From an uncultured Lentisphaerota bacterium (GTDB lineage: Bacteria > Verrucomicrobiota > Lentisphaeria > Victivallales > UBA1829), in assembly GCA_900320095.1 (NCBI GenBank), contig ONQZ01000013.1, positions 1 to 64,000 on the forward strand: a stretch of DNA of 64,000 nucleotides, given 5' to 3'. Below are positions 1,093 to 12,210 of the stretch, one piece after another (the first letter of the stretch is position 1; the number at the start of each line of letters is the position of its first letter). The position numbers and the translations under genes were made by a program. Below the pieces are notes generated by a model, which was not told where the DNA came from, made no database searches, and worked only from the letters and a program-made list of their open reading frames with translations.

Positions 1093-1515
1093 CTACCGGG
1101 TGTTGTACTGTTCGTCGTAGGTACGGACGGCGACGTTGTGGAGGCCGCGGAAGGAACAGAGGTCGAGAATCTCGACGACGCGGCTGAACGCGACCGCCTT
1201 GTCGCAGTCCACGCGGATGCGGCGGTCCTGGTTCTCCTCGGAGAGCTCCAGCAGGATCTGGTGGAGCTCGGAGATCGTGACCGGCCTGCCGTTGTAGAAC
1301 ACCATTTTCTCCTTGTTGACGCCGATGACCATGGTGTCGTTGTCCGGCGGCACGTCGAGCGAGGATGTGGAGACGGGCAGGTCGATGTCGATGTCGCGGT
1401 TTTCCTTCTTGGCGACCGTGGTGATCAGGAAGAAGATGAGGAGGAGGAAGACGCAGTCGATCAGCGAAGACATGCCGATCTCGAGCTTATCCTCCGATGA
1501 ACGTCTGATGCGCAT
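1093..1515 (-). CDS. exbD: ExbD/TolR-type biopolymer transport protein (last gene of operon)
   Basis: 140 aa. One N-terminal membrane helix (about 14-34) is preceded by the family signature, with the conserved Asp in SLIDCVFLLLIFF. A periplasmic domain with short beta/alpha elements follows. ExbD proteins form the rotor or plug inside an ExbB pentamer and use the proton motive force to act on a periplasmic partner. It follows exbB by 24 nt in a four-gene unit that contains a second exbD and a very large anchored protein but no TonB. Two different ExbD proteins in one operon suggest a heteromeric rotor; this is inferred from context. Confidence 0.9.
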   Translation of the reverse strand: MRIRRSSEDKLEIGMSSLIDCVFLLLIFFLITTVAKKENRDIDIDLPVSTSSLDVPPDNDTMVIGVNKEKMVFYNGRPVTISELHQILLELSEENQDRRIRVDCDKAVAFSRVVEILDLCSFRGLHNVAVRTYDEQYNTR

Positions 1516-1539
1516 GTGCGGCGGTCCCGTGGTTCTGCG

Positions 1540-2286
1540 TTACTTCTTCTGCGCGTCGAGCGCGGCGAACATGGCCTCGAGGTTTTCCTCGATGGCGAGT
1601 TCGGCGATGGAGAGTTTCTGCTTCAGGTAGTGGTACGCGCCGAGGGCGGGGATGGCGAGCACGAGGCCCATGTCGGTGGTGATGAGCGCCTTGCTGATGG
1701 AGTCGGCGAGGAGCGCGGCGTCGCCGGTGTCGCCGAGGATGGCGACCTTGGAGAACGCCTCGATCATGCCGATCACGGTGCCGAGCAGACCGAGCATCGG
1801 CGCCATCGTGGCGATGATCGCCAGCGGATAGCTGCGCTGTCTGTGGCGTTCGATCGCGCGCGCGGCGGCATCCGCCACGGCCATCTGCAGGCGGGCTTCG
1901 TCCATGCCGGGGTGGTCCACGATGTACGCGCCGGCGTCGGCGAGAATGCTGGGCTTCGCCTCGGCTTCCTTGCGGATGGCGTCGGCGTCATCCTTCGCGA
2001 TGGCGTCGGCGAAGAAATCGGCGTAGTAGGCGGGCGCGAGGTATCTTTTGCGCATGCGGATGAGGCGTTCGACGAGGAATCCGATGGCGGCGGCGCTGAG
2101 GAGCAGGAGCACGGCGGAGGTCATGCCGCCGTTGATGATCTCCTGGATCCAGTCGATCGTCATTTCATCGGCGGGCTCGGAGGCGGTTTCCGCGACGGTT
2201 TCGGCGGCGTTCTGGGCGGCGAGGAATCCGGGGAGGCAGAAGAGCGCCGCGGCGGAGAGGATCGAAGCACGGATGGGAAGTTTCAT
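1540..2286 (-). CDS. exbB: ExbB/TolQ/MotA-type proton channel protein
   Basis: 248 aa. The ATG at 2286 is preferred over one 33 nt upstream because a GAAAGG sequence sits in front of it and it opens a clean cleavable signal sequence (MKLPIRASILSAAALF..., cleavage near AAQ). Three membrane segments follow, the first after the IIN-GG region near residue 55, the others in the MotA/TolQ/ExbB core with LGLLGTVIGMIEAF and the later ADSISKALITTDMGLVLAIPAL motif that line the proton path. A signal peptide on ExbB is typical of the long ExbB subtype. It lies between the large coiled-coil protein and exbD on one transcript and should form the stator of that motor. Confidence 0.9.
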   Translation of the reverse strand: MKLPIRASILSAAALFCLPGFLAAQNAAETVAETASEPADEMTIDWIQEIINGGMTSAVLLLLSAAAIGFLVERLIRMRKRYLAPAYYADFFADAIAKDDADAIRKEAEAKPSILADAGAYIVDHPGMDEARLQMAVADAAARAIERHRQRSYPLAIIATMAPMLGLLGTVIGMIEAFSKVAILGDTGDAALLADSISKALITTDMGLVLAIPALGAYHYLKQKLSIAELAIEENLEAMFAALDAQKK

Positions 2287-2334
2287 GGAAAACCTTTCGT
2301 AGTTTTTTATGTTCTTCATATTTTGTGATAAACA

Positions 2335-5211
2335 TCAGGGGAGTCTGCGGCGCGCGGAGGGCGTCGAGGGAGCGGCGGCGTCCGGGCGGGCGGCCTGCGT
2401 CTGCGGGGCGTTGCGGCGCTGTTCTGCGGCGCGTTTCGCGGCTGCCGCGGCGGCCGGGGTCTCCTCGCGGACCATGACGAACGAGAACTGGCATTCGTCG
2501 GGACCGTTTTCCACGCAGAAGAGGATGGTGTTCCAGCCCTTGCGGAAGTGGATGTGGACGATGTTCTCGTGGAGGCCCCAGGTGCTCAGCTCGTCGTCGA
2601 ACCAGACCTGTTCGCCGTTGATCCAGAGGACGCTGGCATCGTCGGACCCAATCATGGCGAGGACGTCGGTGTCCTCCTCGAAATGAACGTCGGTATAGGC
2701 GTAGTAGATCGCGTTGTCCATCTTGTCCGGTGTGCGGATGCAGGTCGTGTCGGTCTGAACGTAGCGCCAGCGGAGGCGGATGGGCTTCTGCGTGACCGGG
2801 TCGATCTTGCCGTCGTACTCGGCGTCGAGGTCGATCCTGGTCTCGGGTTCCCGTTTCACGCGGTCGGCGATGTGCGTGAACCTGCTGCCGTCGTATTTGC
2901 CTTCCCACGGACCGATCACGTACCAGGAGTCGATGAAGACGAACCCATGGCGGGCGGCGTTTTTGCTGACGCGGCGTCCGGGGACGGATTCCGCGATGAT
3001 GGCGTAGTCGGCGGGCTCGGAGGCGATGCGCTTGCTGTCGGAGTTGCCGACGGGGCTGTAATAGTAGCCGCCGAACTCGAAGTCGAAGTCGCCGCGGAAC
3101 GCGATGCCGCCTCCGCCGTAGGCGCCGCGGTTGTTGCCGAAGCTGGAGCCGTTTCCGTTGCCCTGTCCCTGACCCTGGCTCTGGCCTTGCCCCTGGCCTT
3201 GTCCCTGGCCCTGCTGTCCGGCGCGTTCCACGCCCTCGCGGCCCATCCGGCCGAGCTGGCGCATCATGTCGGCGAGACTGCCCTGGCCCTGCCCCTGACG
3301 GCCGCCCTGCATACCTGCCTGCTGATTGCGCATGGCGCGCTGCTGGATGGCGGAGAAGAGGCGTTCGGCGGAGAGCGGGAGGTTGATGCCCGCCATGCGC
3401 GCGAGGCTGTTCGCGCGGGACGAAAGCGAATCGGCGGCGTCCTGAAGCGCGGTCATCTGTTCGAGCGCGCGGAGGAGCTGTTCCTTGGTCATGTACTGTC
3501 CGCCGCCCTGCGAGCCGCCCTGTCCCTGGCCGTTGCCCTGTTCACCGTTCTGTCCCTGCTGGCCGCCCTGCTGACTCGCGCTCTGCGATTCGCTCTGGGG
3601 ATCGTTCCTGAGCGCTTCGAGGAGCTTGCGGAGGTACTGTTCGGCCTCGACCGTGGTAAATTCGTCGCGATAACGTCCGTTCATGGCCTTCGTGAGGAAG
3701 CTTTCGGCGTCAGCGTCCATCGCCTTGGCGGCCTCCTGGATGTCGGCGAATTCCGGATCGATGTTGTAAATCCACTCGGACAGCTTCGAGCTGATCTCGT
3801 TGCGGTGGTTCAGCGCAGCCAGGTAGGCGGTGTTCGCGAGGTCCGGGAGCTTGCGCTGGACGGTCGTGTTCGTGTCCTTGAGCTGACGGTCGAATCCCTG
3901 CATGTCGCGGGACGCGGTCTGGAGGAACGAGAGGTCCTGCCGCGCGGTGTCGGTGTCGTTTGCCTCGACGGCCTTTCTGATCGCCTCGTAGGCGCGCTGC
4001 GCCTGCTCCATCGTGTGCTTCGCGTTCTCGTCGACCTCGTTCACCAGATAGATCTCGAAGGACGGCACGTCGTAGTCATAATCGAAATCGTAATCGTAGA
4101 CATCATCGTCATAAACGACCGCCGGCCCGACGATGCCGGGTCTGGGCAGGGGACGCTGACGGCGCGGACGGTTCTTGCGCTCCTCTTCCGCTTTCTTGAT
4201 GCGCTCGCGGCTTTCCTCGGCGGTCTTCTTCGCCTGCTCATAGGCTTCCTGCGTGAGACGGTACACCTCCTCGGCGGCGTCAAGGATCTTCTGCGGATCC
4301 TCGGCGGCTCCGTCTCCCTTCGCCAGGTCGCGCGAGAAATGCTCCATGGACGTCTGGTCCATGTTTTTGTTGATGGAGTCCATCGACCGGATGGCGTTCT
4401 GGTAGGCGTTCAGTTCGGCGTACTTCGTGTCGAGCTGCTCCTCCTTCGCCGCCATGAAGTCCTTCAGTTGCTGGAGCGTGGCGTCGACGGGCGGCATTTC
4501 GGGCGGGGTGTTCATGATGCCGATGTCGTACACGCCGGACATGTCGCCGCTGAGGATGGAGTCGATCATGCGTTCGAGTTCGAGCGACTGCCACTCGGCG
4601 GTGGCGGAATCGACGCCGTAGTCGAGGTAGCTGGACGGATTCGCGCGGAACTTTTCGCTGTTCGCCTTCATGGTCTCCAGCTGGCCGCGGAAGACGGGGA
4701 TCAGGTCGTCGCCCGGATGCTGTTTCATCTGCTGGCGGATGTCGCCGGCGATGCGGGCGTTCTCCGTGAACGGCACGACATAATCGAATTCGTTGGACAG
4801 GTTTTCGGCGAGGTCGAACAGGCGTTCGTACGCCTCCTCCATCGGGTCGCGCAGTTCGGCGTAGATCTCCTTCAGCTCCTCCTTGCGCTCCTCCATCTTC
4901 TCAAGGGTCTCCTCGACCTCCTCCAGTTTCTTGCGGATTTCCTTTTCCTTGCGTTTCTGGACGCGGTCGCGGATCTTCTTGAGCTCGGCGGGCGGGGCTT
5001 CCTTCTTGACCCGTTCCGGGTCGTTCTTGTGGGCTTCGCGCTTCGCCTCGTTTTCCTGTTTCTGCTTCATCGCCTCTTCGAGCGAATACCGGCTGTAGCG
5101 GATGAAGTCAAGCTGCCAGGCTGCGACGATCGCGGCGAGGTAGACGAGGAGCGTGAGCCCCCAGATGACGGCGGTCGTGCGGCCGGACTGCAAGTTGCGT
5201 TTGCTGTTCAT
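2335..5211 (-). CDS. Large membrane-anchored coiled-coil protein with Gln/Gly-rich linker and C-terminal beta-sandwich-like domain
   Basis: 958 aa, not recognised as a named family. One membrane helix (about 13-33) places the rest in the periplasm. Residues 40-130 are a highly charged Lys/Glu coiled coil; more helical segments follow to about 540. Residues about 550-690 are low-complexity Gln/Gly/Ser. Residues about 750-910 look like a compact beta-rich domain of the PA14/jelly-roll carbohydrate-binding kind found in PVC glycosidases (FIDSWYVIGPWEG, VLWINGEQVW, GWNTILFCVENG); this resemblance is my inference. A short Ala/Pro/Arg tail ends it. It sits 16 nt after one exbD and before exbB and the second exbD, so it probably takes the place that TonB or TolA has elsewhere, coupling the motor to the cell wall or outer membrane. 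Confidence 0.8.
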   Translation of the reverse strand: MNSKRNLQSGRTTAVIWGLTLLVYLAAIVAAWQLDFIRYSRYSLEEAMKQKQENEAKREAHKNDPERVKKEAPPAELKKIRDRVQKRKEKEIRKKLEEVEETLEKMEERKEELKEIYAELRDPMEEAYERLFDLAENLSNEFDYVVPFTENARIAGDIRQQMKQHPGDDLIPVFRGQLETMKANSEKFRANPSSYLDYGVDSATAEWQSLELERMIDSILSGDMSGVYDIGIMNTPPEMPPVDATLQQLKDFMAAKEEQLDTKYAELNAYQNAIRSMDSINKNMDQTSMEHFSRDLAKGDGAAEDPQKILDAAEEVYRLTQEAYEQAKKTAEESRERIKKAEEERKNRPRRQRPLPRPGIVGPAVVYDDDVYDYDFDYDYDVPSFEIYLVNEVDENAKHTMEQAQRAYEAIRKAVEANDTDTARQDLSFLQTASRDMQGFDRQLKDTNTTVQRKLPDLANTAYLAALNHRNEISSKLSEWIYNIDPEFADIQEAAKAMDADAESFLTKAMNGRYRDEFTTVEAEQYLRKLLEALRNDPQSESQSASQQGGQQGQNGEQGNGQGQGGSQGGGQYMTKEQLLRALEQMTALQDAADSLSSRANSLARMAGINLPLSAERLFSAIQQRAMRNQQAGMQGGRQGQGQGSLADMMRQLGRMGREGVERAGQQGQGQGQGQGQSQGQGQGNGNGSSFGNNRGAYGGGGIAFRGDFDFEFGGYYYSPVGNSDSKRIASEPADYAIIAESVPGRRVSKNAARHGFVFIDSWYVIGPWEGKYDGSRFTHIADRVKREPETRIDLDAEYDGKIDPVTQKPIRLRWRYVQTDTTCIRTPDKMDNAIYYAYTDVHFEEDTDVLAMIGSDDASVLWINGEQVWFDDELSTWGLHENIVHIHFRKGWNTILFCVENGPDECQFSFVMVREETPAAAAAAKRAAEQRRNAPQTQAARPDAAAPSTPSARRRLP

Positions 5212-5226
5212 GTCAATGCCTCGCGT

Positions 5227-5709
5227 TTAGTCCGATGAGCCGGGGACGTAGAACCGGGATTCGCGGTAGTCGCGCATGCGGACGTCGACCTTGTTCAGAT
5301 GGTTGATCTGGAGCTTGTCCAGCATGTCGATCACGGTCTGGAACTCCACGTCGGGATCGGCGTACAGACGCACGTTGATCTCCTCGTTGCCGCCCTGCGT
5401 CGACATGCGCCCCAGGTTCTCCACGAACTTGTCCACGTCCGGAACGGTACGGAAATCGGGTCGCCCGTCCTGCAGGCGGCGTTCCGCCGAGTAGTAGCGA
5501 CCGTCCTTGCCGATCGCGAGGATCACGCGGCGCGCGTCCATACGTTCGGAGATGGTCACGTCGGGGTCCGGGACCTCGATGGGGATCTGTTTTTCGAGCT
5601 TCTTCATCATGGTGGTGATGAGGAAGAAGATGAGGAGGAGGAAGACGCAGTCGATGAGGGGCGACATTTCGAGCGTGACGTCGTCATCGTCTTTTTTTCG
5701 GATTCTCAT
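5227..5709 (-). CDS. exbD: ExbD/TolR-type biopolymer transport protein (first gene of operon)
   Basis: 160 aa. The N-terminal helix carries the conserved Asp in SPLIDCVFLLLIFFLITT, almost identical to the other ExbD of this operon, but the periplasmic part (about 37-160) is longer and different, including an inserted segment around RRLQDGRPDFRTVP. It leads the unit exbD - coiled-coil protein - exbB - exbD, with short gaps throughout. I see no strong promoter in the 270 nt upstream that matches the window consensus, though several AT-rich hexamers (TATAAA near 5754) could serve. Confidence in family is high; the cargo or partner is unknown. Confidence 0.9.
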   Translation of the reverse strand: MRIRKKDDDDVTLEMSPLIDCVFLLLIFFLITTMMKKLEKQIPIEVPDPDVTISERMDARRVILAIGKDGRYYSAERRLQDGRPDFRTVPDVDKFVENLGRMSTQGGNEEINVRLYADPDVEFQTVIDMLDKLQINHLNKVDVRMRDYRESRFYVPGSSD

Positions 5710-5978: not shown

Positions 5979-7064
5979 TTATTCTTCGGCGGTTTTCTCT
6001 TCGCCTTCGGCGGGCTCGACGGATTCGAGCGCCTGCCACTCGCGCTGCTTCGCCTGCTCCTCGGCGTTCGGGAACGCGGAGATGAAGCCGTCGCCGGGCT
6101 TGGATCCTTTCGGACGCGGTCCGCCGTTGAAGCCGAAGCCTTTTTCATACTGGCCGGCGGTGACGGGGCCGACGGGCTGGATGCCGAGCTTGATGTCGGA
6201 CTGCTTGCCGCGGCGCTGCGAGAAGAGCCATTCCCAGGTATTCTTGTTGGAATACGCTCTGTCCCAGCAGTTGTGGCCGACGCCGAAGAACTCGCGCAGA
6301 TAGACGTTCGTGTTGCCTGCCGCCCTCATGGTGATGAACATCCAGCGGGCGAGCTGGGGCGGGACGGTCGTGTCGTCGCTGCCGTGGAAGATCAGGACGG
6401 GCAGGTCTTTCATCTTTTGGGCGCGGTTCGGATCGCTGCCGCCGCAGCACGGGATTCCGGCCGCGAAGATGTCGGTGCCGTAGCGCGCCAGGAGGTCCCA
6501 GCAGCCGTAGCCGCCCATGGAGAGGCCGGTCACATAGACGCGGTTCTTGTCGGCGTCAAACTCTTTGATCTTCTTTTCGATCAGCACGGGGATCATGCCG
6601 AGCGCCTGGTAGGGTTCCTCCATGAGGTCGCCCATGGCGCCGCCGCGGTGAAGCGGAGCCCAGACCTGGTCGCTCGGGCATTCCGGCGCGAGCACGATAA
6701 CCTTGCGCTTGCCGTCGCGCATCTGCTTCACGATCTCGGGTACGGCGAGACGGAGCTGCGCGAGGTTCTCCTCGCCGCGTTCGCCGAAACCGTGCAGGAA
6801 GACGAGGATCGAGAACTTGCCGGGCTCGTCCGCGTTGTACACGCCCTGGCAGTAACGCAGTTCGCCGTTGCAGTTCGTCAGGACTTCCTGCTTCATTTCC
6901 AGGTCGTTCAGCGTGCGGATCTCGTTGGCAAATCTCTGCTGGATCTGTTCGGAGGGTTCCTCCATCGGGGAGATGACGGCCGATTCGAAAGCCGGATCGG
7001 AGGAGCATGCGGCTCCGATGACGGCGAGGGCGGCGCATCCGAGCACGAGCAAGTGTTTTTTCAT
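5979..7064 (-). CDS. Lipoprotein alpha/beta-hydrolase (esterase/carboxylesterase type)
   Basis: 361 aa. The ATG at 7064 is chosen over an in-frame one 39 nt upstream because AAAGGA lies 9 nt before it and it starts a lipoprotein signal with Cys after AVIGAA. The mature protein has an alpha/beta-hydrolase core with the oxyanion region LHGFGERGEE, the nucleophile elbow GLSMGGYG, an acid residue in HGSDDTTVPP and the catalytic His in GVGHNCWD. This is the PHB-depolymerase/dienelactone-hydrolase-like group that includes secreted carbohydrate esterases. A Pro/Gly/Glu-rich tail of about 70 residues follows. It stands alone between a terminator and its own promoter. The substrate cannot be read from the sequence; acetyl or feruloyl esters of polysaccharides are plausible. 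Confidence 0.8.
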   Translation of the reverse strand: MKKHLLVLGCAALAVIGAACSSDPAFESAVISPMEEPSEQIQQRFANEIRTLNDLEMKQEVLTNCNGELRYCQGVYNADEPGKFSILVFLHGFGERGEENLAQLRLAVPEIVKQMRDGKRKVIVLAPECPSDQVWAPLHRGGAMGDLMEEPYQALGMIPVLIEKKIKEFDADKNRVYVTGLSMGGYGCWDLLARYGTDIFAAGIPCCGGSDPNRAQKMKDLPVLIFHGSDDTTVPPQLARWMFITMRAAGNTNVYLREFFGVGHNCWDRAYSNKNTWEWLFSQRRGKQSDIKLGIQPVGPVTAGQYEKGFGFNGGPRPKGSKPGDGFISAFPNAEEQAKQREWQALESVEPAEGEEKTAEE

Positions 7065-7106
7065 GGCATTGAATCCTTTCAGTGTGTTGGTATATTTTTT
7101 CAATAA

Positions 7107-7134
7107 AATATACAGCGTATTTTGTGAAAATCAA
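7107..7134 (-). promoter_or_regulatory. Promoter for the lipoprotein esterase
   Basis: Minus strand: TTGATT (7129-7134), 16 nt, TATATT (7107-7112), about 40 nt before the start codon. Confidence 0.65.
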
Positions 7135-7303
7135 TTCTTCTGCGTCTTTTTTCCCGCTTTTTCCCATTTTTCCGTCATGTGCCATTTGAAAAAGTAAATG
7201 CACGGGGGAGGAATCAAGGAGCGTGCGTTCACCTTGACAATTGACGCCGATGCGGCTTTATGCGTCGGAAAAAAGGTTGTCCGAAGAAAAAAACGGACAG
7301 CGT

Positions 7304-7332
7304 TTGAAAAAACACCTTTTCAGCTGTAAATT
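7304..7332 (+). promoter_or_regulatory. Promoter for the DUF3791-like pair
   Basis: TTGAAA (7304-7309), 17 nt, TAAATT (7327-7332), 38 nt before the ATG at 7370. Confidence 0.55.
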
Positions 7333-7369
7333 AGGGAAACCGGTATCATGGGAACAACAGGAGCCGATC

Positions 7370-7651
7370 ATGTCGAAACCAGTACTTGACTTTGCCATTT
7401 TCTGCATCGAGGGCGTCGCCGAAAGGCTTCAGCTCCCGGGCAACGTCGTGTACGATCTGCTGACCCGGAAATCCCGCATCCTGAACGACTATGTCGTCGC
7501 GTCCTACGACGTTCTGCACACGCAGAGCAAACAATACATCGTTGATGACATCATTTCCTTCATGAAGGAAGAGGGGTCATCGCATGATCGAAGTCTTCGA
7601 ATCCGCGGAGGAGATTCGCGATGCAGGCCGATAAGACACTGCTTCAGATGA
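7370..7651 (+). CDS. DUF3791-like small protein, probably frameshifted at its C-terminus
   Basis: 93 aa as read. The ATG at 7370 has AGGAG 6 nt upstream. Residues 1-69 match the DUF3791-type pattern (DFAIFCIEGVAERLQLPG, then SYDVLHTQSKQYIVDDII). After MKEEG the reading frame continues for about 25 Arg/Ser-rich residues that look unrelated and overlap the next gene by 31 nt. One extra G in the run of four G at 7571-7574 would give EGVIA followed by TGA and leave a normal gap with ribosome binding site before the next gene. A single-base deletion, real or a sequencing error, is therefore likely. Members of this family sit in toxin-antitoxin-like modules; the function is unknown. Confidence 0.65.
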   Translation: MSKPVLDFAIFCIEGVAERLQLPGNVVYDLLTRKSRILNDYVVASYDVLHTQSKQYIVDDIISFMKEEGSSHDRSLRIRGGDSRCRPIRHCFR

Positions 7652-7836
7652 AATATGCCCGCGTCGTCGCCATGTTCGCCGCGCAGCAGGGGCTTTCCAT
7701 GGAGGATGCTTTGGATTTCTTCTACCATTCGGAGACCTATCAGGAACTCCGCGAAGGGATCGCCGACCTGCACTGCCGCAGCGACCAGTATGTCGCCGAT
7801 GAGCTGACATTGGAATATCGGGACAGCCGCGCCTGA
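7621..7836 (+). CDS. Small DUF3791-neighbour protein
   Basis: 71 aa. GGAGGAG lies 7 nt before the ATG. The sequence has the conserved pattern KYARVVAMFA, ALDFFYHSETYQELREGI, DLHCRSDQYVADEL, seen in small soluble proteins that travel with DUF3791 and DUF3990 genes. In other genomes such pairs are often followed by an ADP-ribosyltransferase-like DUF3990 gene; none is present here, but a full unit with DUF3990 occurs 7.5 kb away at 15363-16293. This copy may be an orphan antitoxin-like remnant. The role is inferred only from family context. Confidence 0.65.
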   Translation: MQADKTLLQMKYARVVAMFAAQQGLSMEDALDFFYHSETYQELREGIADLHCRSDQYVADELTLEYRDSRA

Positions 7837-7904
7837 ACATCCCGGCATTTTCCGCGCGCCACCGGTCTTTTTTTCGCAATCCGCTGATTTTTTTTTTATT
7901 TAGG

Positions 7905-7932
7905 TTGTTTTTTCGGATTGTTGTGATATAGT
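7905..7932 (+). promoter_or_regulatory. Promoter for the lipoprotein cluster
   Basis: TTGTTT (7905-7910), 16 nt, TATAGT (7927-7932), 31 nt before the first lipoprotein start. Confidence 0.6.
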
Positions 7933-7963
7933 ATGGTAGCAACAAGTCATACGGAGCAATAAC

Positions 7964-9181
7964 ATGACCTGGATAAAAACACTGATCCGCAATCTCCTCT
8001 TCGCCGTGCTGTGCGCGTCGCTTTGCGTCTGCGGCACGGGATGCCTCTCCGCGAGCGTCCTGAACAGCGAATTCGGCTCGAAACGCTCCACGTTCACCGA
8101 TTACCGGTATGACATGTCGCCCGACCACGACGAGATCATCCTCACGTGCAAACGGAACCGGGCATACAATTTCCTGCCGCTGTACGGGTCCATCCACAGG
8201 AACGCCGCGTGGACCTGGAGTTCGACCTGGGAGGAGCGCATCCCGCTGGACCCCATGCCGGAGTACCTGATACGGTGCAGCATGATCGTGGAGACCGATC
8301 CCGAAGCAGGGCGTCTCCTGTGGGCGGACCATCTCCCGACGGCCGTGATGGAGGTCGAATCGCTCCCGATCCGGGAGGGCGAAACGTTTTATCTGAAAAT
8401 CCATCCCCAGGACCGGGAAAGGCTGTCGAAACCGTTCCAGCTCCGCCTGGTCCCGAAGAAAGCCGATCCCGAAGAAGTCCCGACGGACGCTGATGAAACC
8501 GTTTCCGCGCCGGAAAACGCTTCAGGGACCGCACCGGAAACCGTACCGGAAACGAAGACCGCCGCGCCTTCGCCGCCGGAATTCGAAAAGCGTCTCATGT
8601 TCCCGGTCTCCGTCACGCTGGACGGCAGCCGCTATGAACTCCTGACCCTCGCGCCGGAAAAGATGACGCCCGTCAATCCTTTCCGGAAGATCCGGGAAGA
8701 TCGGATCAAGGCCCTGGGGGAAAAACGGAAAGAAGCCGAACAGAAGAGAACGCAGGGGCAGAACGGAGAACGGGACGGCGCGCAGAAACAAAAGAGCGGT
8801 GGGTCACAAAGCATGCTCATGTTGCCTATGTCGGGGGTTGTTGCGGCAGCGCTACTGCTCAGTCGTACAGGGAAATCCGAACGGGGAAATCTTCTGGAGA
8901 TCGAGGAGAAAAACTGGGACTTTCAGGAGGCAAACCGGTTTCCCGGCCTTTATCCGTTCCGCGAAAGCCAGGAAGAGGTCTGCATGATCGAGTACGAACG
9001 CGCGACAGGGGAACGGTTCCCCACCGTGGATGCGGTCCTCTGGAAAACGCTCTGGATGCCGTCCGCGATCGTCGGGGACGTGATCCTTATGCCCGGCGAA
9101 ATCGTCATTTTCGGTGGAACCACCTTTCTCATTTACGCGATAGTCAAGGGGATTCAAGAAGAGGGCAGCCCGATCCAATAG
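7964..9181 (+). CDS. Lipoprotein, first of three tandem paralogues
   Basis: 405 aa. The start has GGAG 9 nt upstream. The signal sequence ends in a lipobox-like CGTGC (Cys at about 27). The paralogue core includes RYDMSPDHDEIILT, then AYNFLPLYGS, and near the end LWMPSAIVGDVILMP followed by a hydrophobic stretch. This copy carries an extra low-complexity insert (about 170-210 and 245-280, Pro/Glu/Thr and Lys/Gln-rich) and a hydrophobic segment at about 285-300 that the other two lack. The PSAxVGDVILxP ending resembles the YceK/YidQ type of small lipoprotein, but this is only a suggestion. It shares a near-identical 5' leader with the next gene. Function unknown. Confidence 0.75.
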   Translation: MTWIKTLIRNLLFAVLCASLCVCGTGCLSASVLNSEFGSKRSTFTDYRYDMSPDHDEIILTCKRNRAYNFLPLYGSIHRNAAWTWSSTWEERIPLDPMPEYLIRCSMIVETDPEAGRLLWADHLPTAVMEVESLPIREGETFYLKIHPQDRERLSKPFQLRLVPKKADPEEVPTDADETVSAPENASGTAPETVPETKTAAPSPPEFEKRLMFPVSVTLDGSRYELLTLAPEKMTPVNPFRKIREDRIKALGEKRKEAEQKRTQGQNGERDGAQKQKSGGSQSMLMLPMSGVVAAALLLSRTGKSERGNLLEIEEKNWDFQEANRFPGLYPFRESQEEVCMIEYERATGERFPTVDAVLWKTLWMPSAIVGDVILMPGEIVIFGGTTFLIYAIVKGIQEEGSPIQ

Positions 9182-9216
9182 CGCCGCCCTTATTACACGT
9201 CATACGGAGCAATAAC

Positions 9217-10122
9217 ATGAACTGGAATAAGACGCTGATCCGCAATGTCCTCTTCGCTGTGCTCGTCATGGCGGTAGGGTTCTTCTGCACCGGGTGCTGC
9301 ATGATGTCGGTCATTCAGAACCTCGGCACGACCCGGACGCATTTCAGCGAATACCGCTACGAGATGTCGCCCGGCCGCGACGAGATCATTCTCACGGGCA
9401 AGCGGACGAAGGAATACAACTATCTGCCGTTTTACGGGGCGCTTCACGAGGCGCCGGCATGGACTTCGGTCAAAAACTATGAGAAACGCATCCCGCTGAA
9501 TCCCCTGCCGGAAGACCTGATCCAGTGCAATATGGTCGTGGAAACCGCCCCTGACGCCCCGCGTGCAAAAGTCATGCCGCTTTATCCTCTGCCGCCCGGT
9601 ATCTATGATGATAACGACATAAGAAAACTTTCCCCGGACGAGGTAACGGACCTTTCCGTTGTTCAGTTCGAGTTCGAGGCGTTCGTTGACGAATTTCCGG
9701 TTGGCAAGGACGAGACGATTCATCTCCGCGTGCATCCCGACGACCTGCCGTATCTGTCCCAGCCCTTCCGGCTCATCGTATGGCATCGGGGCGAAGAGGA
9801 GCTCCCGGAGGGAAAAAGAGGCGGTTGGGATCGGTACCGCATGTTCCCTTATGCCATGAACGGCAACCGTTATGAGCTCCTGTGCAGTAATGAACTCATG
9901 CCGTTCGACGAGGAATGGCTTCGGGAAATGAAGCAGGATTACTGGCGTCCCCTCGCGATGAAGGAAATCGTAGGCTATGGAGGCGGCGAGTCCAGCGGGT
10001 CTCCATCGTTCGGGGTGATCTGCTGGAAGGTCCTGTGGTTCCCGTCGGCGGTCGTCGGAGATGTGATTTTGATCCCGGTTTCCATTCCAATCTTGCTCCT
10101 GGTGGTCGCGTTCGGCTCGTAA
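9217..10122 (+). CDS. Lipoprotein, second of three tandem paralogues
   Basis: 301 aa. The leader and first codons (9199-9246) repeat those of the preceding gene (7947-7993) almost base for base, including the GGAGC ribosome binding site, so the two arose by duplication. The lipobox-like CTGC (Cys about 26) ends the signal sequence. Shared motifs are RYEMSPGRDEIILT, EYNYLPFYGA, IPLNPLPEDLI and the C-terminal LWFPSAVVGDVILIP with a hydrophobic tail. It lacks the low-complexity insert of the first paralogue and has a short Asp-rich segment (YDDNDIRKL) instead. Probably an outer- or inner-membrane lipoprotein; function unknown. Confidence 0.75.
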   Translation: MNWNKTLIRNVLFAVLVMAVGFFCTGCCMMSVIQNLGTTRTHFSEYRYEMSPGRDEIILTGKRTKEYNYLPFYGALHEAPAWTSVKNYEKRIPLNPLPEDLIQCNMVVETAPDAPRAKVMPLYPLPPGIYDDNDIRKLSPDEVTDLSVVQFEFEAFVDEFPVGKDETIHLRVHPDDLPYLSQPFRLIVWHRGEEELPEGKRGGWDRYRMFPYAMNGNRYELLCSNELMPFDEEWLREMKQDYWRPLAMKEIVGYGGGESSGSPSFGVICWKVLWFPSAVVGDVILIPVSIPILLLVVAFGS

Positions 10123-10133
10123 AGGGCTGGTGT

Positions 10134-10221
10134 CATGAACATTTTGAACCGAATTAAGTACTTTCATATATAGCTCAAATCCGGAGAAAATCAAGTCATG
10201 AACATTCTGAACCGAATTAAA
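10134..10221 (+). repeat. Imperfect direct repeat: truncated copy of a gene start
   Basis: The 5' end of the following membrane-protein gene (10196-10221, starting TCATGAACATTCTGAACC) is repeated at 10134-10158 with one or two changes, where it opens a 12-codon frame that stops at TAG (10170-10172). It looks like a small partial duplication with a dead first copy. Confidence 0.7.
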
Positions 10222-10569
10222 AACTTTCATCCCGGTCCCGTCTGCAAATCGGTGGTCCTCTTCGTCGTCCTGTTAAGTCTTGCGCTCATTTTCTGGTTCC
10301 TCTCGCTCGAACACAACACAAGCAACACCTCCTTTTTCTGGGTAAACGTCATCGACACCCTTTGGGGTTTGCTTTTTCTTGCCTCCTGGATCCAGCTGAT
10401 ACGGGTTGACAAGATATTCAAACGAAATTACCCGGACAAACCGGGCTTGGGCTTCTTCGTGAAACCGACGCATCCGGTCAAAAGAGCGCTGATGGTGATT
10501 TTTACGACACTGGCGGTGATCCTTCTGCTCTCGTCCTGTGTCATCTGGTGCGCCGCTGCTGTCCAATGA
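10198..10569 (+). CDS. Small membrane protein within the lipoprotein cluster
   Basis: 123 aa. Three predicted membrane helices: about 17-37, 46-65 and 95-117, with a basic loop between the second and third. No family recognised. It lies 75 nt after the second lipoprotein and its stop codon (TGA at 10567-10569) overlaps the start of the third, so translation of the third lipoprotein is probably coupled to it. Its place between lipoprotein paralogues suggests it works with them at the envelope. The last residues are a hydrophobic SSCVIWCAAAVQ stretch, which could resemble a displaced signal sequence. Confidence 0.65.
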   Translation: MNILNRIKNFHPGPVCKSVVLFVVLLSLALIFWFLSLEHNTSNTSFFWVNVIDTLWGLLFLASWIQLIRVDKIFKRNYPDKPGLGFFVKPTHPVKRALMVIFTTLAVILLLSSCVIWCAAAVQ

Positions 10570-11429
10570 GAACGAAAATGAAAGAATCCCTTTTCCCAAA
10601 CCGTTTGCTGCGGCCCCTCCTGCCGCTCGTGGCTGTCTGCGTCCTGATGCTGTTTTGCACCGGGTGCTTTACGGCGGAAACGCTGAAGCATGTCGGAACC
10701 ACGACCGTATCCCGCACTGGGTATGAATGGGAGCTTTCCCCCGACAAAAGCGAGGTCATCGCGACCGCGAAACTGAAGACGGCCTATAACTATCTGCCGT
10801 TTTACGGCCGCGGCGCTTTGTTCCACTCGCTCCCCGCATGGACCACGTCCCGTACCTACGAAAAACATTTCCCGCTGGAACCGCTCCATGAGAATCTGGT
10901 CCGGTTTTATCTTGAGGTGGAGCCGGACGCTGGCGCCATGCCGGTTAACATGCACGTTTCCAGCATGATGGGGAAACCGTATTTTCTGTATAATTTGGCG
11001 GAGCATGTTGACAACGAAACAATTCCGCCCGCGGACAATCGGTCAATCGTCAACGGGGAAACGCTTCGCATGCGAATCCGCCCCGAAGACATTTCCGCCT
11101 TGTCCGAACCGTATTGCGTCCTGACGGTCCAGGCCAGGGACGCCTTTCGGAATCTACCAACAGAGTATTTGGCATTCCCGTACGCGCAGGACGGCAATCG
11201 TTACACGATGATCGCTTGCAGATACTTCGGGGCGAATGCCGAGCTCAATCCGTTCGACGAAGAAGCCATGCTTCAGAAAACCGGAGAACAGAAGGCGGGA
11301 CCGTTCGGCTGGTGCTTCCGGATCCTTGCCCTTCCGCCCGCGGTTGCCGTGGACGTGCTTGCCATTCCTATTTATATTTGGGTCCCGATCGCTTTGTATT
11401 TCGATCTTAACGAACATAACGGGCTATGA
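10566..11429 (+). CDS. Lipoprotein, third of three tandem paralogues
   Basis: 287 aa from the ATG at 10566, which overlaps the upstream stop as ATGA; an ATG at 10578 is equally possible. The signal sequence ends at a CTGC lipobox (Cys about 34). Family motifs are YEWELSPDKSEVIAT, AYNYLPFYGR, FPLEPLHENLV and near the C-terminus LALPPAVAVDVLAIPIYIW. It is more diverged than the first two, which resemble each other most. It ends the cluster; a fresh promoter for the toxin-antitoxin pair follows. No function can be assigned. Confidence 0.7.
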   Translation: MRTKMKESLFPNRLLRPLLPLVAVCVLMLFCTGCFTAETLKHVGTTTVSRTGYEWELSPDKSEVIATAKLKTAYNYLPFYGRGALFHSLPAWTTSRTYEKHFPLEPLHENLVRFYLEVEPDAGAMPVNMHVSSMMGKPYFLYNLAEHVDNETIPPADNRSIVNGETLRMRIRPEDISALSEPYCVLTVQARDAFRNLPTEYLAFPYAQDGNRYTMIACRYFGANAELNPFDEEAMLQKTGEQKAGPFGWCFRILALPPAVAVDVLAIPIYIWVPIALYFDLNEHNGL

Positions 11430-11466: not shown

Positions 11467-11494
11467 TTGACTTTTGAAAAACAGCACGTATATT
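11467..11494 (+). promoter_or_regulatory. Promoter of the antitoxin/PIN-toxin pair
   Basis: TTGACT (11467-11472), 16 nt, TATATT (11489-11494). It is overlapped by the palindrome at 11484-11514. Confidence 0.75.
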
Positions 11495-11514
11495 ATGTTT
11501 TGCAGGATACGTGC
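11484..11514 (+). promoter_or_regulatory. Operator-like perfect inverted repeat over the -10 and start site
   Basis: GCACGTAT (11484-11491) and ATACGTGC (11507-11514) are exact reverse complements with 15 nt between them. They cover the -10 and the expected transcription start of the toxin-antitoxin operon. VapB-like antitoxins commonly bind such sites to repress their own operon, so autoregulation is expected. Confidence 0.65.
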
Positions 11515-11533
11515 AACAACATGGAGAGGGATT

Positions 11534-11806
11534 ATGCCCAGAACAAGAAAACTTACTTTGACGGCTACGCCGGAGATCATCGCACTGGCAGAGGAGCAGG
11601 CCAGAAACGAGGGCACAAGCATTTCTTCGATGTTCTCCAATTTTATTATGGCAAAATCCCGGATGAGCGGAAAACACGAAAGCCCGCGCGACCGGAAGAT
11701 CGGTCCGATCACGAAATCCCTGACGGGGATCGTCAAGCTTCCGGACGACTTTGATGAAAAAGACTTCATGGGTCAGGTCTTTGCTGAAAAATACGGACTG
11801 AAATGA
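11534..11806 (+). CDS. Antitoxin (DUF6364-like) of a PIN toxin-antitoxin pair
   Basis: 90 aa. The start at 11534 is set by GGAGAGGG just upstream. The N-terminal half, KLTLTATPEIIALAEEQARNEGTSISSMFSNFI, is the pattern of small ribbon-helix-helix-type antitoxins in which a strand pairs to make the DNA-binding sheet. The Lys/Arg-rich middle and the acidic C-terminus (LPDDFDEKDFMGQVFAEKYG) should neutralise the toxin. The stop overlaps the toxin start by 4 nt (ATGA), the usual coupling in such modules. It likely represses its own promoter through the palindrome upstream. Confidence 0.8.
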   Translation: MPRTRKLTLTATPEIIALAEEQARNEGTSISSMFSNFIMAKSRMSGKHESPRDRKIGPITKSLTGIVKLPDDFDEKDFMGQVFAEKYGLK

Positions 11807-12210
11807 AGCTTTTTCTGGACACCAACGTCATCATTGACGTGATCGCGTCGCGCGAACCTTTCGTTGAAGATTCCCGCAAAGTCCTTTCTCTCTGTGAACG
11901 GGGAAAAGCGGAGGGCGTCATGTCCGCCCTTACCCTCTGCACGATCTCGTATGTGCTGCGCAAATGCGCCGCGCCCGGAACGCTTCGGCGCCAGATCCGG
12001 GATTTGCGGAATCTGCTTCCTCCGGTCGACCTCACGACACAGCTTCTGGACAGGGCCATTTCATCGACGATCACCGACTTCGAAGATGCCGTGCAGTTCT
12101 ACTCGGCGGTTTACTGCGACGCGGACTGCATTATCACGAGAAACGCAAAGGATTTCCCGCAAGACAGCATCCCAGTCCTATCTCCAACCGCCTTTTTGAA
12201 TCTGAAATAA
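11803..12210 (+). CDS. PIN-domain toxin (VapC-like ribonuclease)
   Basis: 135 aa, normal for the family. The PIN acidic residues are visible: Asp6 in FLDTNVIIDV, a Glu in the helix near residue 40 (KAEGVMS region), and Asp/Glu in TDFEDAVQFYSA with a further Asp in CDADCIITRNAKDF. These bind Mg2+ or Mn2+ for RNA cleavage. PIN toxins of this kind cut tRNA or rRNA when their antitoxin is degraded. It is translationally coupled to the antitoxin. No terminator is evident before the ribosomal promoter at 12308. Confidence 0.85.
   Translation: MKLFLDTNVIIDVIASREPFVEDSRKVLSLCERGKAEGVMSALTLCTISYVLRKCAAPGTLRRQIRDLRNLLPPVDLTTQLLDRAISSTITDFEDAVQFYSAVYCDADCIITRNAKDFPQDSIPVLSPTAFLNLK

Follow-up and report, generated by a model that had tools for sequence, protein, structure and literature searches.

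The window, by which we mean the whole 64,000-nucleotide stretch of contig ONQZ01000013.1 analysed here, carries an operon on its minus strand (5709-1093) in which the genes ExbD-a, LP, ExbB and ExbD-b follow one another with intergenic gaps of only 15, 15 and 24 nt. ExbD-a (5227..5709, 160 aa) and ExbD-b (1093..1515, 140 aa) match the Pfam ExbD family PF02472 (1.4e-19 and 2.0e-26; 70.9 and 93 bits, cut-off 25.4), and ExbB (1540..2319, 259 aa), which is of the long type with a signal-like N-terminal extension, matches MotA_ExbB, PF01618 (2.1e-26; 92.6 bits, cut-off 22.9). The remaining gene (2335..5211) encodes LP, a large protein of 958 aa that we propose to be a force transducer and for which we found no accepted family in Pfam, NCBIfam or PADLOC.

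The residues of the proton path are retained in the motor proteins. T181 and T215 of ExbB align to T148 and T181 of E. coli ExbB, D20 of ExbD-b aligns to D25 of E. coli ExbD, and the same Asp is found in ExbD-a (D20) and is invariant in the ExbD alignment. Since the window also holds a canonical unit on the minus strand, composed of tolQ (52633-51893), tolR (51879-51463) and tonB (51463-50498), the ExbD-LP-ExbB-ExbD operon is a second motor. The TonB of the canonical unit keeps the His of its transmembrane (TM) helix and has Val at the usual Ser position (V-x3-H).

A large plus-strand ORF (2548-5238) lies antisense to LP, and we take it to be, in all likelihood, a shadow of the high-GC LP gene. 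The four operon ORFs are real rather than chance readings, because related genomes repeat all four in the same order at LP identities ranging from 98% down to about 56-58%. Scans for sigma-70 promoters and for terminators returned matches no commoner than expected by chance.

Just upstream of the operon lies a gene for an alpha/beta hydrolase (5979-7103, minus strand; Peptidase_S9/Abhydrolase_2) with a lipoprotein-like signal and a TTG start. Three consecutive plus-strand ORFs (7964-11429) form a tandem family of similar lipoprotein-like proteins of 405, 301 and 293 aa sharing the motif YRYEMSP..DEIIL..KR...YNYLPFYG, and a pair of small ORFs with a 4-nt overlap (11474-12210, plus strand) resembles an antitoxin and a PIN-domain (VapC-like) toxin.

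Architecture and predicted end domain of LP

LP begins with a single TM helix that, together with a juxtamembrane stretch, spans residues 17-40 (W17 to S40; 5092..5163, minus strand), as delimited by invariant columns and hhalign. It continues with a mostly helical, coiled-coil region (residues 75-535; 3607..4989, minus strand), a Gln/Gly-rich linker consisting of 53% G, Q, S or N (residues 541-735; 3007..3591, minus strand) and a C-terminal beta domain (residues 740-915; 2467..2994, minus strand). The AlphaFold2 model of the full-length protein, on which the helical region is drawn, is poor (pLDDT 56); it contains a long N-terminal helix, several helices up to residue 535, a disordered linker of mostly low pLDDT and the same end domain as is obtained below.

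Modelling of residues 725-925 from a 71-sequence alignment gave a confident beta sandwich (AlphaFold2, pLDDT 87.6, pTM 0.85). Foldseek matched this domain to the Cea1A lectin, GH3 beta-glucosidases, a Marinomonas PA14 domain and the CBM6/35/36 families, with modest strength (E about 1e-4 to 1e-3, TM-scores 0.35-0.46). The domain contains an Asp-Asp pair, D857-D858, that is kept as DD in 69 of the 71 alignment rows; in PA14 lectins such a pair (Asp-cis-Asp) binds calcium and sugar. The Pfam PA14 model (PF07691) stays below its cut-off at locus L126, with 13.0 bits against the required 24, and gives no match in the LP of the window, and a search with the beta-domain profile returned a weak PA14 hint and nothing more. 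Sequence searches of the PDB with LP found only chance coiled-coil matches and no solved structure, and a single-sequence search of IMG/VR found no matches.

In several relatives, the TM/coiled-coil part and the beta domain are two proteins of their own, the latter with a signal-peptide-like start. Because the separate beta-domain proteins start in this way, we assign this domain to the periplasm or a place farther out, and the charges flanking the TM helix of LP (+2.3 on the N-flank vs -0.3 on the C-flank) agree with a beta domain outside the cytoplasm. The split loci are L101, L102, L107, L230, L234, L236, L239, L240 and L242, and most, not all, of their beta-domain proteins have such a start. 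Other subgroups of the family have in common a central helical module (DLYxxA; probability 99.5%), which profile comparison did not detect in the window's genus.

A preliminary description, made from sequence alone, had reported the four genes and a separate tolQ-tolR-tonB unit, had given the 958-aa protein the order of TM helix, helical region, Gln/Gly linker and beta domain, and had likened the last of these to PA14 and carbohydrate-binding modules. ORFs and Pfam matches confirm the genes, the topology held, and the resemblance received modest support from Foldseek, the model showing a sandwich of extracytoplasmic type and no soluble cytoplasmic fold. Collectively, these results indicate that LP probably ends in an extracytoplasmic PA14/CBM-like sandwich, a fold that remains a model prediction.

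Conservation of the unit and linkage to ExbBD

LP is present in 13/13 genomes of the window's genus, which belongs to the rumen Victivallales/Lentisphaeria, and the order ExbD-LP-ExbB-ExbD is complete at every locus not cut by a contig end. The lowest LP identity within the genus is about 56-58% (genome G007), and even at this distance W17, Y24, W32 and the stretch L34-D35-F36-I37-R38-Y39-S40 are invariant. The remaining genera of the family yielded neither LP nor a close ExbB, and their one weak match to the beta domain falls within a 2010-aa frame.

Furthermore, five genomes of the genus, the window's own included, carry a diverged second copy of the operon with two ExbDs, an ExbB that measures about 480-520 aa in the complete cases, and a shorter LP2 whose C-terminal domain is about 41% identical to that of LP. 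The copy in the window's genome (locus L023, G000:C17, 5642-9544) encodes a 477-aa ExbB, two ExbDs and an LP2 with the same beta domain.

In a set of 198 genomes from the class, seven outside the genus hold the nearest ExbB; the same seven hold the nearest non-genus LP homologues, and the two genes share a contig in each of them except G110, where the contigs end. For a wider view we took only the C-terminal domain of LP as query against 84,980 species, without using linkage as a criterion, and retained the best 80 of 140 relatives. ExbB and/or ExbD directly adjoin the LP gene at all 77 evaluable loci, three of the 80 being excluded from the count because the gene starts at a contig edge. The hosts belong to Lentisphaeria, Kiritimatiellae, Verrucomicrobia, Planctomycetota, KSB1 and Burkholderiales (Massilia, Duganella, Pseudoduganella, Telluria and Pelomonas), and the family comprises subtypes with one and with two ExbDs. 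A plasmid search with a Pseudoduganella homologue gave no match.

The 80 retained loci rank highest against a query that was itself derived from motor-linked members, so that a survey of 388 genomes of the phylum provides the fairer test. In this survey, ExbBD adjoined 20 of the 21 strong matches examined (E <= 1e-39) vs none of the 19 weaker ones (E > 1e-29). This contrast indicates that the fold is common to unrelated large proteins, such as a glycosidase-like protein in genome G027, and that one sequence-distinct branch of it belongs to motors. Only one strong beta-domain protein lacks a neighbouring ExbB or ExbD (L243, G401:C11, about 6355-8472); it may be an orphan or part of a system whose motor lies elsewhere.

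We also sought a conserved partner gene around the unit across the 80 loci and found none beyond ExbB, ExbD and LP. As the flanking genes are not conserved, the unit consists of ExbB-ExbD(-ExbD)-LP only. In some Kiritimatiellae and Massilia (L175, L178, L191; L150, L166, L172), two beta-domain transducer genes lie side by side behind one ExbB-ExbD.

Docking motif and proposed mechanism

Previous cryo-EM work has described TonB Ser16/His20 and TolA Ser18/His22 in contact with TM1 of ExbB/TolQ, the ExbB partners of the TonB residues being Ser34 and Trp38 (PMC12215075). Of 73 non-redundant LP systems, 56 have a His in the corresponding [S/A]-x3-His register of their first TM helix, namely every one-ExbD system (52/52) and 4 of the 21 two-ExbD systems. 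In the window's genus, T20-x3-Y24 aligns without gaps to the Ser-x3-His of the relatives (hhalign probability 97%, E 1e-10), an alignment anchored on the downstream W32-x2-D-F motif. On the ExbB side, the equivalent of Ser34 is Ser in 56/56 His-bearing systems and in 4/17 His-less ones, and the equivalent of Trp38, which is present in the window's own TolQ, is missing throughout the LP family.

With Tyr in place of His and no Trp38 equivalent in ExbB, docking of the window's LP must differ in detail, and standard coupling cannot simply be assumed in its genus. We had considered the association between His and Ser to be strong coevolution (Fisher p 3e-11) and downgraded it; since the ExbB tree shows only about three changes of the His state, the association is merely suggestive and not independently significant.

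The preliminary description had treated the operon as a candidate undescribed system with an inferred coupling role, to be refuted if homologues of the large protein usually occurred without ExbBD. This refutation did not come about, as the homologues lie almost only beside ExbBD, and the coupling role is strengthened by the TonB/TolA-type Ser-x3-His of most relatives, although physical coupling is still inferred. Two points are refined: the system is no one-off but a multi-phylum family with two subtypes, and its docking His is Tyr in the window's genus.

We consider it likely that LP is a periplasmic force transducer of the TonB/TolA kind, with a different end domain and its own ExbB/ExbD motor. 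Under this hypothesis, ExbB, presumably in five copies, would enclose a pair of ExbD proteins, possibly an ExbD-a/ExbD-b heterodimer, driven by proton flow. The N-terminal TM helix would anchor LP by docking laterally against ExbB, as in TonB and TolA, the helical and Gln/Gly-rich middle would cross the periplasm, and the PA14/CBM-like end would grip a target to which the work of the motor is delivered. The target would most likely be a glycan (peptidoglycan, or a polysaccharide that is exported or belongs to the outer membrane) or an envelope protein bearing glycans, for which the fold is the only ligand evidence. The data show the gene content, the conserved linkage, the predicted end-domain fold, the proton-path residues and, for most relatives, the docking motif; coupling, force, ligand and heterodimer are inferred, with neither a complex model nor an experiment behind them.

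The reading of LP as the transducer of its own motor is drawn from the linkage (77/77, and 20/21 vs 0/19), the paralogous operon that repeats the same set and the Ser-x3-His of the relatives. Against it stand the missing docking His in the window's LP, the lack of ExbBD beside L243, the poor full-length model and the modest TM-scores. A bolder version, possible but less likely than not, sees a class of lectin arms that is spread over several phyla and powered by protons: ExbBD motors would pull or move envelope polysaccharide by way of a coiled coil that crosses the periplasm and has a PA14-like, sugar-binding end. One branch with two different ExbDs, including the window's genus, would then couple without canonical His docking.

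Other explanations fit the data less well. LP might be merely passive, an envelope tether or scaffold bound to ExbBD and to a periplasmic glycan, which would position or gate the motor but receive no force; the loss of the docking His in 17/73 systems and the suitability of a long coiled coil and sticky linker speak for this, but a proton motor of its own would be superfluous for a tether, and the retention of the Ser-x3-His register by every one-ExbD system across several phyla favours coupling of the TonB/TolA type, which makes the idea unlikely. We also think it improbable that the unit is a specialised Ton system in which LP substitutes for TonB at outer-membrane receptors and its beta domain engages the receptor or a cargo polysaccharide. 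The motor family and TM motif do match, and the hosts are rumen and other polysaccharide users, yet LP has no TonB C-terminal domain, neither a receptor gene nor any other conserved gene adjoins the unit, and the window already holds a standard TonB.

Two further possibilities appear more remote still. A motor for surface motility or polymer export like AglQRS, which combines one MotA/TolQ-type protein with two of TolR type, with LP as a moving adhesin arm, would agree with one ExbB serving two different ExbDs and with a lectin-like end able to grip adhesin or slime; however, the unit has no conserved partner genes, many hosts have only one ExbD, and there are no motility data. Least likely is a drifting relict in the window's genus, in which Tyr for His would mean that LP is uncoupled. 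The T20-x3-Y24 replacement is what suggests it, whereas none of the 13 genomes of this genus has lost LP, every uncut operon still has its four genes, the proton residues are intact, and W17, Y24, W32 and D35-F36 do not vary even in the most diverged LP.

Comparison with known transducers

To our knowledge, the TonB/TolA-type transducers of ExbBD/TolQR recognised or proposed so far are TonB, TolA and, since 2025, the vWA proteins. LP resembles TonB-ExbB-ExbD in its motor proteins, proton-path residues and, in its relatives, the TM docking motif, but it has no TonB_C domain, Pro-rich linker or receptor linkage, and has Tyr for His in the window's genus. With TolA it shares the single N-terminal TM helix, the Ser-x3-His of most relatives, a helical region like domain II of TolA, a C-terminal globular domain and a TolQ/TolR-type motor; unlike TolA, it matches neither the TolA nor the TonB C-terminal domain and has no conserved neighbours, hence no conserved tolB/pal, across the 80 loci, where separate tolB/pal profiles were not used. 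The predicted beta sandwich and its near-invariant Asp-Asp pair recall the PA14 and CBM6-35-36 carbohydrate-binding folds, from which the LP end differs in staying below the Pfam PA14 cut-off and in being part of a TM protein linked to ExbBD. Zorya and other defence systems were considered and set aside, as no PADLOC model matched.

The LP class, which is conserved in several phyla and has up to four copies per genome, would, if the proposal is true, widen the envelope roles ascribed to ExbBD motors. Its natural variants (His-bearing vs His-less, one vs two ExbDs, fused vs split) are well suited to tests of how force passes from motor to transducer.

A search of the open-access literature, which did not cover subscription papers, found no account of a PA14/CBM-like transducer. 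The vWA force transducers, encoded beside tolQ and a pair of tolR genes, were described from PVC and other bacteria (Williams-Jones et al. 2025, PMC12204202), in a paper whose main text does not mention PA14. Like LP, they are PVC-centred, accompany an ExbB/TolQ with often two different ExbD/TolR proteins, and combine a TM helix that usually bears Ser-x3-His with an extended middle and a globular end domain other than that of TonB. They differ in that the LP end is a PA14/CBM-like beta sandwich without a vWA Pfam match, that LP has a long coiled coil and Gln/Gly linker and no conserved TPR gene, and that its family extends to Burkholderiales and KSB1. Taken together, these comparisons make the vWA transducers the nearest published kind, and LP most probably follows the same logic with a different end domain.
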